Assembly (NCBI GenBank): GCA_958295785.1
Contig: OY282377.1
Coordinates: forward strand, 2,742,394-2,806,393
Origin: an uncultured Latescibacterota bacterium
GTDB taxonomy: Bacteria; Latescibacterota; UBA2968
Direction of reading: 5' to 3'
DNA length: 64,000 bases
The notes under the pieces: generated by a model
Told to the model about the DNA's origin: nothing
Databases searched by the model: none
What the model saw: only the letters and a program-made list of their open reading frames with translations
Part shown: positions 5,263 through 13,371 of the stretch, piece after piece
How positions within the stretch are numbered: the first letter of the stretch is position 1
Layout: every line of letters starts with the position of its first letter
Position numbers and translations under genes: made by a program

Positions 5263-5742
5263 ATGATGAAGTGTGCTATTGCGATCTTTTTGGGCGGGAT
5301 GCTCATGGCGGGATGCCAGATGCCCTCGCTCTTTGAAGGACAGACACAAATAACCAAACACGGTCGGGTGCGGGTGGAAGGGCAGTACGACAATGGCGTT
5401 CGAAATGGGGTTTGGACCTATTACGACGCGCTGGGCAACATCCAGGGGCAAGGGACGTACAAAAATGGCGCGATGCAAAACGGCCTTGAAATCACGTTTC
5501 ACAGCAATGGGCAGAAAAAGACGGAAGGCATGTGGACAAACGCGCAGAAAGACGGCTATTGGGCGTCCTATTTTCGAAGCGGAACAAAAAAAGAGGAAGG
5601 CAATTACCTATTCGAAAAAAAAACAGGCGTGTGGCGCGAATACGACCCGTCCTCTTTTTACGCGCTGGAAAAGGTGTTTGAAGAGGGTAAACTGGTCGGT
5701 TGGCGCGAATTTAAGCTGGCCCGACTGGGCAATCCATTTTGA
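5263..5742 (+). CDS. MORN/YwqK-repeat lipoprotein
   Basis: A 159-residue protein with a type II signal peptide: MMKCAIAIFLGGMLMAGC, lipobox LMAG-C. The rest is a series of about 22-residue repeats of the type Y.NG...G.W..Y (for example YDNGVRNGVWTYYDALGN, YKNGAMQNGLEITFHSNG), the MORN_2 / YwqK family pattern. Such repeats form an open beta-sheet surface; the cellular role is not known. The start is supported by AGGAGG at 5252-5257. A paralogue of similar size and design is encoded at 12862-13371. Confidence 0.8.
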   Translation: MMKCAIAIFLGGMLMAGCQMPSLFEGQTQITKHGRVRVEGQYDNGVRNGVWTYYDALGNIQGQGTYKNGAMQNGLEITFHSNGQKKTEGMWTNAQKDGYWASYFRSGTKKEEGNYLFEKKTGVWREYDPSSFYALEKVFEEGKLVGWREFKLARLGNPF

Positions 5743-5885: not shown

Positions 5886-8800
5886 ATGCAATATATCGCC
5901 GATGTTCACTTGCATTCGCGTTTTGCGCGCGCAACGAGCAAGACATTGAATCCCGAAAATTTGTACCGCTGGAGCCGCATCAAAGGGCTGAATGTGGTGG
6001 GCACGGGCGATTTTACCCATCCGGTTTGGGTTGAGGAATTGCGCGATCAACTCGAGCCGGCCGAAGAGGGGTTGTTTCAACTGCGACCCGAGTTGCGGCG
6101 GACCGTGGATGCCGAGTTGCCGCCGACATGTCGCGGAGAAACGCGCTTTGTGCTCTCGGTTGAGATCAGCCTGATTTACAAAAAGAACGGCAAAACGAGA
6201 AAAATTCACCATGTGGTGCTGATGCCGAGTTTCGACGCGGTTGCGCGGTTGAATGCGCGCTTGGGCGCCATCGGCAATCTGAAGTCCGACGGGCGGCCCA
6301 TTTTGGGCTTGGACAGCCGGGATTTGGTGGAGATCTGTTTGGAGGCCTGTGACGAGGTGTTGTTTATTCCCGCGCATATCTGGACGCCCCATTTTGCCGT
6401 TTTGGGCGCGAGTTCCGGGTTTGATACGTTGGCAGAGTGTTTTGAAGACATGCTGCCGCATATTTTTGCCGTGGAAACGGGACTGTCCTCGGACCCGCCG
6501 ATGAATTGGCGGTTGTCCATGCTAGACGATTACGCGATAGTCTCCAATTCGGACGCGCATTCGCCCCAAAAATTGGCCCGCGAAGCCACTTGTTTTGACG
6601 CGGACCTCTCGTTTCGCGGGATGTACGAGGCATTGCGAGACCGCGATCCCGCGCGGTTTACGGGCACGCTGGAATTTTATCCCGAAGAGGGCAAGTATCA
6701 CTTTGACGGGCATCGAAAATGCGATGTGTGCTGGAAACCCTCGCAGACCATCCGCGCCGAGGGGATGTGTCCGGTGTGTGGGCGCAAATTGACCGTGGGC
6801 GTGCTGCACCGCGTCGAGCGGCTCGCCGACCGCGCAGAAGGCGACCGCGCAGACGTGGCGATGCCGTTTGAAAATTTGATCCCGTTGCCCGAGATCATCG
6901 GCTCGGTTTTGCAGGTGGGGCCAACGAGCAAGCGCGTGCAGGCCGCGTACGAGACGATGCTGGCAACGCACGGGCCAGAGTTGAAAATTTTGCGCGAATT
7001 GCCCGTTGCAGAGATCGCAAAAACCGGCGATCCCCTCCTTGCCGAAGGCATTCGGCGGATGCGCGCAGGCGAAGTTCACATCGCGCCGGGATACGATGGC
7101 GTGTACGGAAAAATCCAAGTTTTTTCAGACGAAGACCGCGCGCGTTTGAGCCGGCAGGACGCGCTGTTTCAAATGCCCGAGAAGATGGAAAAGACAATAG
7201 CCCCGCCAAAGAAAAACGCAGATCGCACAAACACAAGGCCCCAGTCTCCAACCCCCAACCTCCACCCTCTCCCAACATCTAACTTAGACCCCGACCAACG
7301 AGCAACTGTGGCAATGGACAAAGGGCCTGTAATCGTGATCGCAGGGCCCGGCACGGGGAAAACCCGAGTGCTCACGCATCGCGTGGTCGATCTGATTCAA
7401 AATCGCGGCGTGTCGCCGGCATCTGTGATGGCCGTGACATTTACCAATCGCGCCGCCGATGAAATGTGGGAGCGCGTTGTCGCGCTGTTCTCTGGCGGCG
7501 AAGAATTAGTGCCGCTGCGCGTGGGCACATTCCACCGCTTGGCGTTAGATCTCTTGCGCGAATACGCGCCCGACCGGTTGGGCAGCATTGCCGATAGGGG
7601 CGAGGCACGCGGCGTTTTGCAAGAGGCCATGACCGATATTGGGGCCGACTTGTCGGTTGATCGCGCGCTGTCTGACATTTCGCTGTGCAAAGCCGGAGCG
7701 CAGGAGTTGGATGCCGATTTGCGTCCTGTTTATGCGGCGTATCAGCATCGCATGGCGGCTTATGGGTTGATGGATTTTGACGATATTTTGCTCGTTTTGA
7801 ACGAGGTGCTGTGCGGCGATGTTTTGCGGGACGTGCAGGCGCGTTTTTCCCATGTGTTGGTGGATGAGTTTCAAGATGTCAACGCCGTGCAGTACGCGTG
7901 GGTTCAAAAATTGGCCGGGAACGGCGATGGGCTGTTTGTCATTGGCGATCCGGATCAGGCGATCTACGGGTTTCGCGGGGCCAGCGCGGCGTATTTTGCG
8001 CGGTTGAAGGCAGATTTTTCCACAGCGCGCGAAGTGGTGTTGCAGCGCGCGTTTCGCTCGACCCCTCAGATTCTCGCCGCGGCGTCCCGCATTGCCGGGC
8101 GGTCTTTTGTTGCGATGCGCGAAAGCGGTGCGAATCTGACAGTGTTATCCACACCCGGGGAAACGGGCGAGGGCATTGCGATAGTGGATGAAATTGTGAA
8201 ACGGGTCGGGGGCGCGGATTTGCTACAAGCCAACGAAGAGGGCAAGCGCGGGTTGGACGATTTTGCGGTTTTGTTTCGCACCGGGCGGCAGGCAGACGCG
8301 CTGGAATCGCGTTTTTTGGAGGCGGGCATTCCCTATCGCGTCGTGGGGCAAAAGACATATTTAGACGCGCCTTCTGTGCGGCGGGCACTGGGATTTTTTA
8401 AGTATGTGTTGCGCGACGACGCCCACGCGCTGATCGAAGTGTTGTCCATTCCGGCATTCGATCCCGGCCGCACGGCGCGGGCCGCACTGCGAAAGGGCAT
8501 TCGCAAAGGCGTTTTGCCGGACGCATTGCCAGACGCCGTGCAGGAGAAATGGGATGCGGTGAGAGAGGCTGTGGATCGCTTCCGCAAGGCATTGCCGCAC
8601 CGGTCGCCCGCCGAACTCATCGCAATGTGGGCAGATGAATTTGCGATGCCCGAAGATGTCGCGCTCGACCGACTGGGGTTGTTGGCCGAAAGTGTGGACG
8701 CCCTCGCGGATTTGTTGGATGTGGTCGCCCTGGGGCAAGATGGCGATTTTGTCCGCCACGGCCGGGTCGTGCGCCCCGAAGCCGTGACCCTGATGACCTT

Positions 8801-9092
8801 GCATGCGTCTAAGGGGCTGGAGTTTCCCGTGGTCTTTGTCTGCGGTGTCGAGGAGGGGTTGCTACCGTATTCCAATGCGGATGCCGCAGAGGAACGACGC
8901 CTGTTTTTCGTGGGCATCACGCGCGGGCAAGATGAGGTGATCCTCACGCGCGCCCGAAGCCGCCTGCGGTTTGGCGAACGCATTCGCCCCGAGGTGTCGC
9001 GCTTTGTGTCCGACATTCCCGACGAGGTGATCGAATATGTCGATCTGCGAACCAAAAGGCGCGAATCCGCCGAACAATTGTCGCTGTTTTAA
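5886..9092 (+). CDS. EndoQ-like PHP endonuclease fused to UvrD/PcrA-type helicase
   Basis: A single 1068-residue protein. Residues 1-400 match the Endonuclease Q family: the PHP-fold metal motif VHLHSRFA (H8, H10), GTGDFTHP near 38-45, VSNSDAHSP near 220, and a zinc ribbon CDVC...CPVCG near 278-300. EndoQ nicks DNA 5' of uracil, hypoxanthine and abasic sites in archaea and some Bacillales. A low-complexity Lys/Pro/Thr linker (about 435-472) precedes a complete SF1A helicase: Walker A GPGTGKT near 486, LVDEFQDVNAVQ (motif II), GDPDQAIYGFRGA (III), TLHASKGLEFPVVF (V) and RRLFFVGITRG (VI). The fusion suggests that strand opening is coupled to nicking at deaminated bases. The start has an AAAGGA site. 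polA lies 750 bp away on the other strand. Confidence 0.85.
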   Translation: MQYIADVHLHSRFARATSKTLNPENLYRWSRIKGLNVVGTGDFTHPVWVEELRDQLEPAEEGLFQLRPELRRTVDAELPPTCRGETRFVLSVEISLIYKKNGKTRKIHHVVLMPSFDAVARLNARLGAIGNLKSDGRPILGLDSRDLVEICLEACDEVLFIPAHIWTPHFAVLGASSGFDTLAECFEDMLPHIFAVETGLSSDPPMNWRLSMLDDYAIVSNSDAHSPQKLAREATCFDADLSFRGMYEALRDRDPARFTGTLEFYPEEGKYHFDGHRKCDVCWKPSQTIRAEGMCPVCGRKLTVGVLHRVERLADRAEGDRADVAMPFENLIPLPEIIGSVLQVGPTSKRVQAAYETMLATHGPELKILRELPVAEIAKTGDPLLAEGIRRMRAGEVHIAPGYDGVYGKIQVFSDEDRARLSRQDALFQMPEKMEKTIAPPKKNADRTNTRPQSPTPNLHPLPTSNLDPDQRATVAMDKGPVIVIAGPGTGKTRVLTHRVVDLIQNRGVSPASVMAVTFTNRAADEMWERVVALFSGGEELVPLRVGTFHRLALDLLREYAPDRLGSIADRGEARGVLQEAMTDIGADLSVDRALSDISLCKAGAQELDADLRPVYAAYQHRMAAYGLMDFDDILLVLNEVLCGDVLRDVQARFSHVLVDEFQDVNAVQYAWVQKLAGNGDGLFVIGDPDQAIYGFRGASAAYFARLKADFSTAREVVLQRAFRSTPQILAAASRIAGRSFVAMRESGANLTVLSTPGETGEGIAIVDEIVKRVGGADLLQANEEGKRGLDDFAVLFRTGRQADALESRFLEAGIPYRVVGQKTYLDAPSVRRALGFFKYVLRDDAHALIEVLSIPAFDPGRTARAALRKGIRKGVLPDALPDAVQEKWDAVREAVDRFRKALPHRSPAELIAMWADEFAMPEDVALDRLGLLAESVDALADLLDVVALGQDGDFVRHGRVVRPEAVTLMTLHASKGLEFPVVFVCGVEEGLLPYSNADAAEERRLFFVGITRGQDEVILTRARSRLRFGERIRPEVSRFVSDIPDEVIEYVDLRTKRRESAEQLSLF

Positions 9093-9842: not shown

Positions 9843-12614
9843 TCAATGCGCCTCCAACCAGTTGCTTCCCGTGCCCATCTCCACCACAATCGGCACCGAC
9901 ATCGGCAGGGCGTTTTTCATCGCTTCTTCAATGAGCGGCATCGCCACATCGGCTTCGTCTTTGTGCATGTCAAAAACGAGTTCGTCGTGAACTTGCAACA
10001 ACATGCGCGTTTTTAACGCCCGTTCTTGCAGCGCGTCTTGAACGCGGCGCATCGCAATTTTGATCATATCCGCTGCCGTGCCCTGAATCCGCGAATTGAT
10101 CGCATTGCGCTCGGCGCGCTTGCGCGTGGTGGCGTTGCGCGAGTGAATGTCTCGCAAATAACGCCTGCGCCCGGTCATCGTCTCCACATACCCGTGTTCG
10201 CGTGCAAAAGCAATGGTTTCATCCATGTACTTTTTCGCGCCGGGAAATTGGTCGAAATACTGATCGATCAACCGCCCGGCTTCGGATCGCGGAATGTTCA
10301 ATCGCTGCGCCAAGCCAAAAGCCGAAATCCCATAAATAATGCCAAAGTTCACGGTCTTGGCCTGGCGGCGCATCTCGGCGGTCACATCGCCTTCGTCCAA
10401 GCCGTAAATTTTCATCGCGGTTGCCGCGTGAATGTCCAACCCATCCCGAAATGCCTTGCCCATCTCGATATCCCCACTCAATTCGGCCACCACGCGCAAT
10501 TCGATCTGCGAATAGTCCGCCGACAACAGCGCGTAGTGCTCGTTGCGCGGCACAAAGGCTTTGCGAATCTCGCGCCCCTTTTCCGTGCGAATGGGGATAT
10601 TCTGCAAATTCGGCCCGTGCGATTGCAACCGCCCGGTCGCGGTCACGGCCTGTTCGTAATGCGTATGCACGTGCCCGGTTTTCGCAAAGACCGCGCCCGG
10701 CAGCATGTCCAAATACGTGGATTTCAGTTTCGAGTACGTGCGATACATCAAAATCTGCTCGACAATCTCGTGTTTGTGCGCCAGCCGCTGCAAAATGGAT
10801 TCCCCGGTTTGATACTGCTTGGTCTTGGTGGTTCGCCGCGCATTGGGGTCGAGTTTCAACTTGTCGAACAATATCTCGCCCAGTTGCTTGGGGGAATTGA
10901 GATTAAACGCTTCGCCCGCCAACTCGTAAATGCGCCCGCGAATGGCCGCGAGTTCGTCTCGCAAATCCTCCGACAGCACCTCGATGACCGGCACGTCCAT
11001 GCGAATGCCCTCATACTCCATCTGTGCCAACACCGATACCAGCGGGCATTCCACATCTTCAAACACGCGCGTCTGTCCCATCTCTTTGATTTTTGGACGC
11101 AGGGCCTCGGCCAACTGCAAGGTGATATCCGCATCCTCGGTCGCGTATTCCGTCACCTTGTCCAGCGGGACCTCGCGCAGGGTCTTTTGTTTGACGCCCT
11201 TTTTCTTTTCCCCGATTAAAGACTCAATGGCAATGGGTTCATATCCCAACACGGTCCGCGCCAAAATATCCATGCCGCGGCGCGCTTCGGGGGCGATCAC
11301 ATACGCGGCCAGCATCGTGTCAAATATCGCCCCCCGAACCTCCAAGCCCTGCCACAACAACACGGCCATGTCGAATTTGAGATTGTGTCCAATTTTCTTT
11401 GTTTTGGGATTTTCCAAAATCTCCCGAAATTCTTCCAACGCGGCCCTGTTTTCATCCGGGTCTTCCGGCAGGGGCACGTAATATCCCGCGTGCGGTTGAA
11501 ACGAGAACGCGAGGCCGAGCAATTCGCACGTTCTCGGATTCAGGCCCGTCGTTTCCGTATCAAAACAAAATGCCTTTTGCCGCGCCAATTTTGCGATTAA
11601 GGCCGCGCGCTTCTCCCGCGTATCCACCGTGTAATACTCGTGTTCGACATCCGCAATGGTCTTGTTATTCGACTCGCCTATCGGCTCATCCGCAGCCTCA
11701 TCGCCAAACAGCGAGGTCTGTTGTCGATCCGCATTAAAATCGCCTCCAAACAGCCGTTTGCCCAGGGTGTGGAACTCCAACTCGGCAAACAGAGTTTTGA
11801 GCTTTTCATCGTCTCGCGGCTTCACCGATAGATCGTCCAACCCAAAATTCAACGGCACGTCGAGACGAATGGCGACCAATTCCTTTGACAGCAATGCCTG
11901 TTTTCGATACGTCACCACATTCTCTTTTTGCTTGCCCTTCAATTCATCCACATGATCGAGCAAGCCCTCCACGCTGTCGTATTGCGCGATCAACTTTTGC
12001 GCGGTCTTTGGCCCAATGCCCGGCACGCCCGGCACATTGTCGCTCGAATCGCCCATCAGCCCGAGCATATCGATCACTTGATCCACGCGCTCGATTTCCC
12101 ATTGCGCCAGCACTTCTGCCACGCCCAAAATCTCCGCGCCTTGTCCCGTACGCCCGGGCTTGCTGATCCGCGTTTTTTCCGACACGAGTTGGGCATAGTC
12201 CTTATCGGGCGTCACCATATACGTTGTGAACCCGGCCTTTTCGGCCTGCTTGGCCAGCGTGCCGATCACGTCGTCGGCCTCATAGCCCGGTTTGCGAATC
12301 ACCGGCACGTTGAACCCTCCGCACATCTGATCGATATAGGGCAACGCGAGGCTCAAATCCTCGGGCATGGCTTCCCGCTGCGCCTTGTACGCTTTGAACA
12401 TCTCGTGCCGATACGTGGGCTCTGGCGTGTCGAAAACCACGGCCAAGTGCGAGGGTTGCGCGTTGCCCAAAATATCCAACAACGCATTTGTAAAAACAAA
12501 TAACGCCGAAGTGTTCATCCCGTTCGACGTCATGCGCGGATTGCGGATCATCGCAAAATGCCCCCGATAAATCAGGGCCATTCCATCTAACAAATACAGG
12601 GTCTTATCTGCCAT
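9843..12614 (-). CDS. polA: DNA polymerase I
   Basis: A 923-residue three-domain enzyme. Residues 1-300 are the 5' nuclease (LYLLDGMALIYRGHFA, VTPDKDYAQL, GLMGDSSDNVPGVPGIGPK). About 340-520 is the 3'-5' proofreading exonuclease with intact acidic residues (CFDTETTGL, GHNLKFDMAVL, YATEDADITLQL). The polymerase follows, with motif A SADYSQIELRV, motif B RRQAKTVNFGIIYG and motif C LLQVHDELVFD. It fills gaps and removes RNA primers in repair and lagging-strand maturation. The proofreading site looks active, unlike in Thermus or mycobacterial Pol I. Confidence 0.97.
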   Translation of the reverse strand: MADKTLYLLDGMALIYRGHFAMIRNPRMTSNGMNTSALFVFTNALLDILGNAQPSHLAVVFDTPEPTYRHEMFKAYKAQREAMPEDLSLALPYIDQMCGGFNVPVIRKPGYEADDVIGTLAKQAEKAGFTTYMVTPDKDYAQLVSEKTRISKPGRTGQGAEILGVAEVLAQWEIERVDQVIDMLGLMGDSSDNVPGVPGIGPKTAQKLIAQYDSVEGLLDHVDELKGKQKENVVTYRKQALLSKELVAIRLDVPLNFGLDDLSVKPRDDEKLKTLFAELEFHTLGKRLFGGDFNADRQQTSLFGDEAADEPIGESNNKTIADVEHEYYTVDTREKRAALIAKLARQKAFCFDTETTGLNPRTCELLGLAFSFQPHAGYYVPLPEDPDENRAALEEFREILENPKTKKIGHNLKFDMAVLLWQGLEVRGAIFDTMLAAYVIAPEARRGMDILARTVLGYEPIAIESLIGEKKKGVKQKTLREVPLDKVTEYATEDADITLQLAEALRPKIKEMGQTRVFEDVECPLVSVLAQMEYEGIRMDVPVIEVLSEDLRDELAAIRGRIYELAGEAFNLNSPKQLGEILFDKLKLDPNARRTTKTKQYQTGESILQRLAHKHEIVEQILMYRTYSKLKSTYLDMLPGAVFAKTGHVHTHYEQAVTATGRLQSHGPNLQNIPIRTEKGREIRKAFVPRNEHYALLSADYSQIELRVVAELSGDIEMGKAFRDGLDIHAATAMKIYGLDEGDVTAEMRRQAKTVNFGIIYGISAFGLAQRLNIPRSEAGRLIDQYFDQFPGAKKYMDETIAFAREHGYVETMTGRRRYLRDIHSRNATTRKRAERNAINSRIQGTAADMIKIAMRRVQDALQERALKTRMLLQVHDELVFDMHKDEADVAMPLIEEAMKNALPMSVPIVVEMGTGSNWLEAH

Positions 12615-12861: not shown

Positions 12862-13371
12862 TCATTCCTCCACCCGCAAAAACGCGCCGCGATCCCAAAA
12901 CTGCCTCTTCGCCACCGCGCCAGTCGAATCCCAGTACGTCCAAATCCCATCGGGTTCGCCGTCTAGGTATGTCACTTCCTTTTGTTTGACGCCATTTGCA
13001 TACCACCATGTTGAAAGCCCGTGCCGCCCGCCATTTTCCCACATGCCCGTGTTCTTGATCTGTCCATTTTCGTACCATTCCACGACTGCGCCTTCGGGCT
13101 TGCCATCAACCCAGTCCATTTCCCCTTGTTTTTGCCCGTTCTCATACCAGTGCGTCCAAACCCCCACTTTGACATCGCGCTCGTATTTGCCGACCGAACG
13201 CTCGCGGCCATTTTCGTAAAACGACTGATACAACCCGTGTCTGAGATACCGCTTGTGCCCTTCATCCCAATACACATGGTATTTTTCGCGCCCATCCTCT
13301 ACGAGTTGAACCTCGGGCCCACATGCAACCAGCGCGAGACAAAACGCGATGATTCTCAATTGACGCCACAT
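12862..13371 (-). CDS. MORN/YwqK-repeat lipoprotein, second paralogue
   Basis: A 169-residue protein with signal MWRQLRIIAFCLALVAC and a lipobox-like LVAC at residues 14-17. It is followed by repeats such as YENGRERSVGKYERDVKVGV, WYENGQKQGEMDWVDGKPEG and WYANGVKQKEVTYLDGEPDG. This is the MORN_2 pattern shared with the protein at 5263, but repeat number and sequence differ, so the duplication is not recent. It is probably an outer-membrane-anchored beta-sheet protein of unknown function. Confidence 0.75.
   Translation of the reverse strand: MWRQLRIIAFCLALVACGPEVQLVEDGREKYHVYWDEGHKRYLRHGLYQSFYENGRERSVGKYERDVKVGVWTHWYENGQKQGEMDWVDGKPEGAVVEWYENGQIKNTGMWENGGRHGLSTWWYANGVKQKEVTYLDGEPDGIWTYWDSTGAVAKRQFWDRGAFLRVEE

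Follow-up and report, generated by a model that had tools for sequence, protein, structure and literature searches.

The gene at bases 5886–9092 of the window, meaning the whole 64 000-nucleotide stretch of DNA that was analysed, encodes an endonuclease Q (EndoQ)-type nuclease and a UvrD-type helicase in one chain, with a clamp-like motif behind each. This joining of two known families, in which the clamp motif is doubled, is real, widespread and apparently undescribed. As the sequence-only reading of this DNA had supposed, no account of an EndoQ-UvrD fusion was found in the open literature searched (subscription papers on the B. pumilus EndoQ and on EndoQ-DNA structures were outside this scope). 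The protein probably carries out excision repair of deaminated bases in bacteria, in a clamp-tethered, nick-initiated and strand-displacing manner, and its sequence suggests a compact candidate DNA repair machine common to several bacterial groups.

The open reading frame (+ strand, as are all features within it) begins with ATG and specifies 1068 amino acids plus a stop. The presence of both enzymes in one chain was confirmed by sequence matches, fold and the coordinates of the open reading frame, and an assembly or frame artefact was ruled out, as the full-length fusion recurs at 80 independent loci. An AlphaFold2 model based on a 56-row alignment (mean pLDDT 85) consisted of two confident halves with low confidence at residues 424–463 (the linker) and 1057–1068. 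The linker (residues 429–466, bases 7170–7283) is variable and unalignable in relatives, and the pLDDT of <50 at residues 424–463 bears out the disorder previously proposed for it.

Pfam detected the helicase half of the fusion and not the EndoQ half. In NCBIfam, the match to the EndoQ-type model TIGR00375 scored 161.7 bits, below the cut-off of 326.6, and several UvrD-type equivalogs matched, all far under their cut-offs (357 vs 911 bits for TIGR01073 and 318 vs 1144 bits for TIGR01075). The fusion therefore falls in neither profile-named subgroup. TIGR00375 is the name for a hypothetical equivalog and does not define a function, and its cut-off was reached by no genome of the three samples (phylum, Clostridia and Desulfobacterota-type), standalone bacterial EndoQs included.

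The EndoQ half

The EndoQ domain, made up of a PHP nuclease, a zinc ribbon and a C-terminal subdomain, occupies residues 1–423 (bases 5886–7154) and was assigned by sequence (PDB 5zb8 and 7k30–33) and by fold. Residues 5–421 matched PfuEndoQ (5zb8), the closest solved structure, with an E value of 1e-44. When the AlphaFold2 model was searched with Foldseek the EndoQ fold was recovered (TMt 0.88 to 5zb8), with only 28% identity in the alignment.

Loss of the key catalytic residues had been named in the sequence-only reading as the observation that would speak against it, and these residues were found to be intact. D6, H8, H10, E93, H108, H164, E197, G199, S201, D223 and H225 are invariant in 81 fused proteins. 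The first three form the PHP motif D6-x-H8-x-H10 (bases 5901–5915), and D223 and H225 belong to the SDAH motif (residues 222–225, bases 6549–6560), named as the most conserved motif of EndoQ (PMC4357722). By mapping on PfuEndoQ, E76, H84, H139, D192 and H194 correspond to E93, H108, H164, D223 and H225 of the fusion, and the base-pocket residues G169 and S171 to G199 and S201. E76, H84 and H139 are catalytic zinc ligands, and mutation of each abolishes PfuEndoQ activity (PMC8307549). As the catalytic residues, the base-pocket residues and the helicase motif cores (see below) are all kept, the objection fails. The four-cysteine site of the zinc ribbon (Cys279, Cys282, Cys295 and Cys298, bases 6720–6779) is complete in the window's protein; C279, C295 and C298 are invariant, while C282 is found in 62 of the 81 and replaced in the other 19. 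From the kept residues we infer that the EndoQ half nicks 5' of dI, dU, dX and AP sites, a step that is known for EndoQ itself.

A protein of the same architecture could instead act on another lesion, such as oxidised pyrimidines, abasic sites or ribonucleotides, while its helicase cleared the nicked strand or fork blocks. PfuEndoQ also cuts 5-hydroxyuracil, 5-hydroxycytosine and dihydrouracil (PMC8307549), and at 28% identity the pocket may differ beyond the residues checked, but H139, G169 and S171, the PfuEndoQ residues that keep out T and A, are all retained and this reading is unlikely.

Archaeal EndoQ (PfuEndoQ and TkoEndoQ; PDB 5zb8, 7k30–33) shares its fold, catalytic and base-pocket residues and zinc ribbon with the fusion, but is about 400 amino acids long, has no helicase and uses PCNA in place of the beta clamp. 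Bacterial standalone EndoQs (the B. pumilus enzyme; TIGR00375) have the EndoQ domain but again no helicase, and those of Clostridia are distant from the fusion (about 27% identity) and lack the clamp motif.

The helicase half

The full SF1A helicase recognized in the sequence-only reading was upheld. Residues 467–1056 (bases 7284–9053) were assigned to the UvrD/PcrA type by profile and sequence matches, motifs and fold: residues 465–1050 matched PcrA/UvrD (1pjr) with an E value of 5e-76, Foldseek recovered the UvrD fold (TMt about 0.8), and motifs Q, I, Ia and II–VI are present together with the four-domain fold of SF1A. The cores of motifs I, Ia, II, III, V and VI are invariant in the 81 fused proteins. 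The invariant residues include G487, G489, G491, K492 and T493 of the Walker A sequence GPGTGKT (residues 487–493, bases 7344–7364), D660, E661, Q663 and D664 of the Walker B sequence LVDEFQD (residues 658–664, bases 7857–7877), and R1005, T1012 and R1013 of motif VI, EERRLFFVGITRGQ (residues 1002–1015, bases 8889–8930).

UvrD and PcrA are 3'-to-5' helicases. The fused helicases share this type, all of the motifs and the fold with UvrD, PcrA and Rep, but form their own clade and are joined to a nuclease. The window's genome also encodes a separate PcrA, whose long C-terminal tail is missing from the helicase of the fusion. A reduced 2B domain was considered and dropped, as the distance between motifs IV and V (244, compared with 267 in the genome's own PcrA) is just slightly shorter.

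Clamp-like motifs

A beta-clamp motif, QLSLF, was found at the C-terminus (residues 1064–1068, bases 9075–9089) in a disordered tail (pLDDT <50). The pattern Q[LMI]x[LF]F occurs within the last 30 residues of 75 of the 81 fused proteins (over 200 shuffles the mean was 0.24 and the maximum 2), and 39 of the 81 have QL[SD]LF there. A second, internal motif, QDALF (residues 424–428, bases 7155–7169; family consensus GQxSLF), opens the linker, where the usual forms in fused proteins are QLSLF, QMSFF and QISLF. Q424 is invariant (81/81), and Qxx[LIFM][FL] is found internally in 77 of the 81 (shuffle mean 6.6, maximum 13). The Gln of both motifs is invariant in the 56-sequence alignment and both lie in predicted disorder. 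The published clamp consensus is Q-phi-x-[LM]-[FL], with the classical form QL[SD]LF (PMC11139829). The C-terminal motif satisfies this clamp-client consensus in a disordered segment. The internal QDALF does so in part and may bind weakly, because its second residue is Asp and the consensus calls for an aliphatic one there. None of the other complete UvrD-like proteins read in the window's genome, PcrA included, has the C-terminal clamp motif.

The place of the internal motif matches that of a C-terminal motif in standalone EndoQs. Of 20 standalone bacterial EndoQs inspected (L126–L145), 18 end in Qxx-L-F at this place, and in 13 of these the second residue is aliphatic; three others from the same clade (L089–L091) likewise end in a clamp-like motif. 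The motif is about as far behind the domain as in the fusion, for example ...DGVYGKITLFPEKKRESERKEQLKLF. As most same-clade standalone EndoQs end in the first motif, the fusion has retained the tag of EndoQ and bears a second behind the helicase. Archaeal EndoQ also has a clamp motif just behind the domain, a C-terminal PIP box via which it binds, and is stimulated by, PCNA, and a beta-clamp consensus at the C-terminus of bacterial EndoQ homologs was noted earlier (PMC4858679). No mention of the doubling of the motif in the fusion was found in the literature searched. The two tags should dock the fusion on the beta clamp, as predicted from their sequences. Hand-over to a polymerase had been proposed in the sequence-only reading from the proximity of polA and xthA; the clamp motifs, which it missed, are the stronger evidence for such a step.

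Proposed mechanism

For the favoured excision repair role, the EndoQ domain would flip out dI, dX, dU or an abasic site and nick immediately 5' of it. The products of an EndoQ nick are a 3'-OH and a 5'-phosphate, and it is the 5' end that carries the lesion (PMC4357722). The fused 3'-to-5' helicase could then load at the nick, travel along the intact strand and strip away the 5' end that bears the lesion, moving in the direction in which a polymerase on the same clamp would extend the 3'-OH. The polarity of UvrD and PcrA fits strand displacement downstream of the nick. A flap nuclease, such as the 5'-nuclease of Pol I, and ligase would complete repair. With a clamp motif following each catalytic half, both nuclease and motor would stay on the clamp, perhaps in its two pockets.

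The nick, the displacement by helicase or polymerase that follows it and the tethering to a clamp resemble mismatch repair by MutL, beta clamp and UvrD, and UVDE-type alternative excision repair (PMC4357722), but in the fusion a lesion-specific nick and a motor are in one chain and there is no mismatch sensor. For the step that follows an EndoQ nick in archaea, a 2015 model went no further than proposing polymerase displacement or an unnamed helicase (PMC4357722). The natural fusion points to a clamp-bound UvrD-type motor as the partner in this step. It also makes the step directly testable, and supplies mesophilic proteins in cultured species, with fused proteins in Desulfonema magnum and Clostridium methylpentosum.

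A more elaborate version, which we consider rather doubtful, is a replication-coupled pathway. Here the two motifs would bring the EndoQ and helicase halves to both pockets of a single beta ring trailing the fork. This one machine, carried by the clamp, would then remove dU and dI, also where they had been misincorporated into the new strand, and would use no glycosylase, EndoV or MutH-like step.

Distribution and descent of the fusion

The suspicion that related fusions exist elsewhere proved correct, as a survey of fusion frequency found them to be widespread and in several phyla. The fusion occurs in Latescibacterota, Clostridia, Desulfobacterales, KSB1, Calditrichota and Chloroflexota. A genome scan with the full-length query returned >500 relatives, and the best 80 loci were examined; all are full-length fusions, though as the best matches of a full-length query they were selected for being fused. 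Among these best 80 of >500 loci, identity was 75–77% in Latescibacterota and about 40–44% in Clostridia, Desulfobacterales, KSB1, Anaerolineae and Calditrichota. Of 64 genomes from the window's own phylum, 44 had an EndoQ match, and within its class nearly all of these were as long as a fusion. The Clostridia sample (245 genomes) contained about 13 fused and 22 standalone EndoQs. In the Desulfobacterota-type sample 133 of 198 genomes had an EndoQ match; by open-frame length alone, 51 EndoQs were classed as fused and 72 as standalone. EndoQ is thus common in bacteria, where early work spoke of few genera.

In a tree with 11 free UvrD helicases, taken from the window's genome and from further EndoQ-bearing genomes, the fused helicases formed one separate clade (support 0.97), which supports a single origin of the fusion. 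The EndoQ tree separated fused from standalone proteins nearly cleanly when few standalone rows were included, but the split blurred after 20 more were added. One standalone EndoQ (L122 of G312, positions 1–2760) lies inside the fused clade and seems to have lost its helicase secondarily; its gene now adjoins an endonuclease III-like open reading frame. An adjacent separate UvrD gene as the unfused precursor was sought at 20 standalone EndoQ loci, and none was present within about 6 kb. Across pairs of fused proteins, identity in the EndoQ half rises with identity in the helicase half (r=0.94), a value that is descriptive as the pairs share ancestry.

The helicase half is far less conserved than the EndoQ half (mean identity among fused proteins 41% vs 63%). 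Together with the loss in L122, this would be in line with uncoupled halves, with nuclease and motor merely co-delivered to the clamp and the helicase serving fork or transcription conflicts as PcrA does. However, the ATPase motifs are invariant, the two halves remain joined across several phyla, and the cell has a separate PcrA whose C-terminal tail the fusion is without, making an uncoupled arrangement improbable.

Genomic context and other repair genes

The genes xthA (starting at base 161, 272 amino acids) and polA (bases 9843–12614, identified from its own sequence rather than by profile search) are present nearby, as the sequence-only reading had stated, both on the – strand, opposite to the fusion gene. 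The link drawn from them did not hold. In none of the relatives with flanking DNA, those of the same genus included, do polA, GNAT, metF or sahH (the genes searched for) adjoin the fusion gene, and with no relative having polA beside it a functional link through the polA/xthA neighbourhood was rejected. There is no conserved operon partner beyond close kin and no conserved repair gene neighbour among relatives.

The idea of a mobile or viral gene was also rejected, as no homolog of the fusion was found in the viral contigs, phages and plasmids searched. Defence against foreign DNA containing uracil or modified bases, by nicking and unwinding in the manner of nuclease plus UvrD-like helicase systems such as Gabija, is highly improbable: for EndoQ of bacteria an antiviral function has been proposed (PMC8307549) and the PADLOC helicase models RTasHel and GajB match the helicase half, but those matches reflect generic UvrD homology, the viral contigs, phages and plasmids searched gave no homolog, and presence in most genomes of the class, no recurrent neighbour and the clamp motifs point to housekeeping.

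Uracil-DNA glycosylase (UDG) was found in nearly all genomes of the phylum, the window's included, so replacement of UDG by the fusion was rejected and uracil repair alone would not need the fusion. Replacement of mismatch repair was likewise rejected, as mutL is present in the window's genome and most relatives. Replacement of EndoV was considered too. The window's genome has no EndoV, and just one genome in the class has it; EndoV is common in other families of the phylum, but this pattern follows the tree and may be a lineage effect only, and EndoV is rare in Clostridia anyway (2 of 245 genomes). Counted against the clamp-tethered excision repair role were the presence of UDG, the lack of a conserved repair neighbour, the departure of QDALF from the consensus, and the many EndoQ-bearing bacteria that do without a fused helicase (the 72 standalone vs 51 fused of one sample).

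Outside the window, a UDG gene (the second PF03167 match) lies about 1 kb from mutL (G000:C1:2526059–2529034), and this pairing was also seen in several relatives. Within the window, a large open reading frame that by eye resembles an AAA-ATPase/PD-(D/E)XK protein (bases 164–1918) adjoins xthA, and similar open reading frames are found near two clostridial homologs (L071 and L088). Two small open reading frames with MORN-like repeats (bases 5263–5742 and 12862–13371), recognized by eye only, flank the region.
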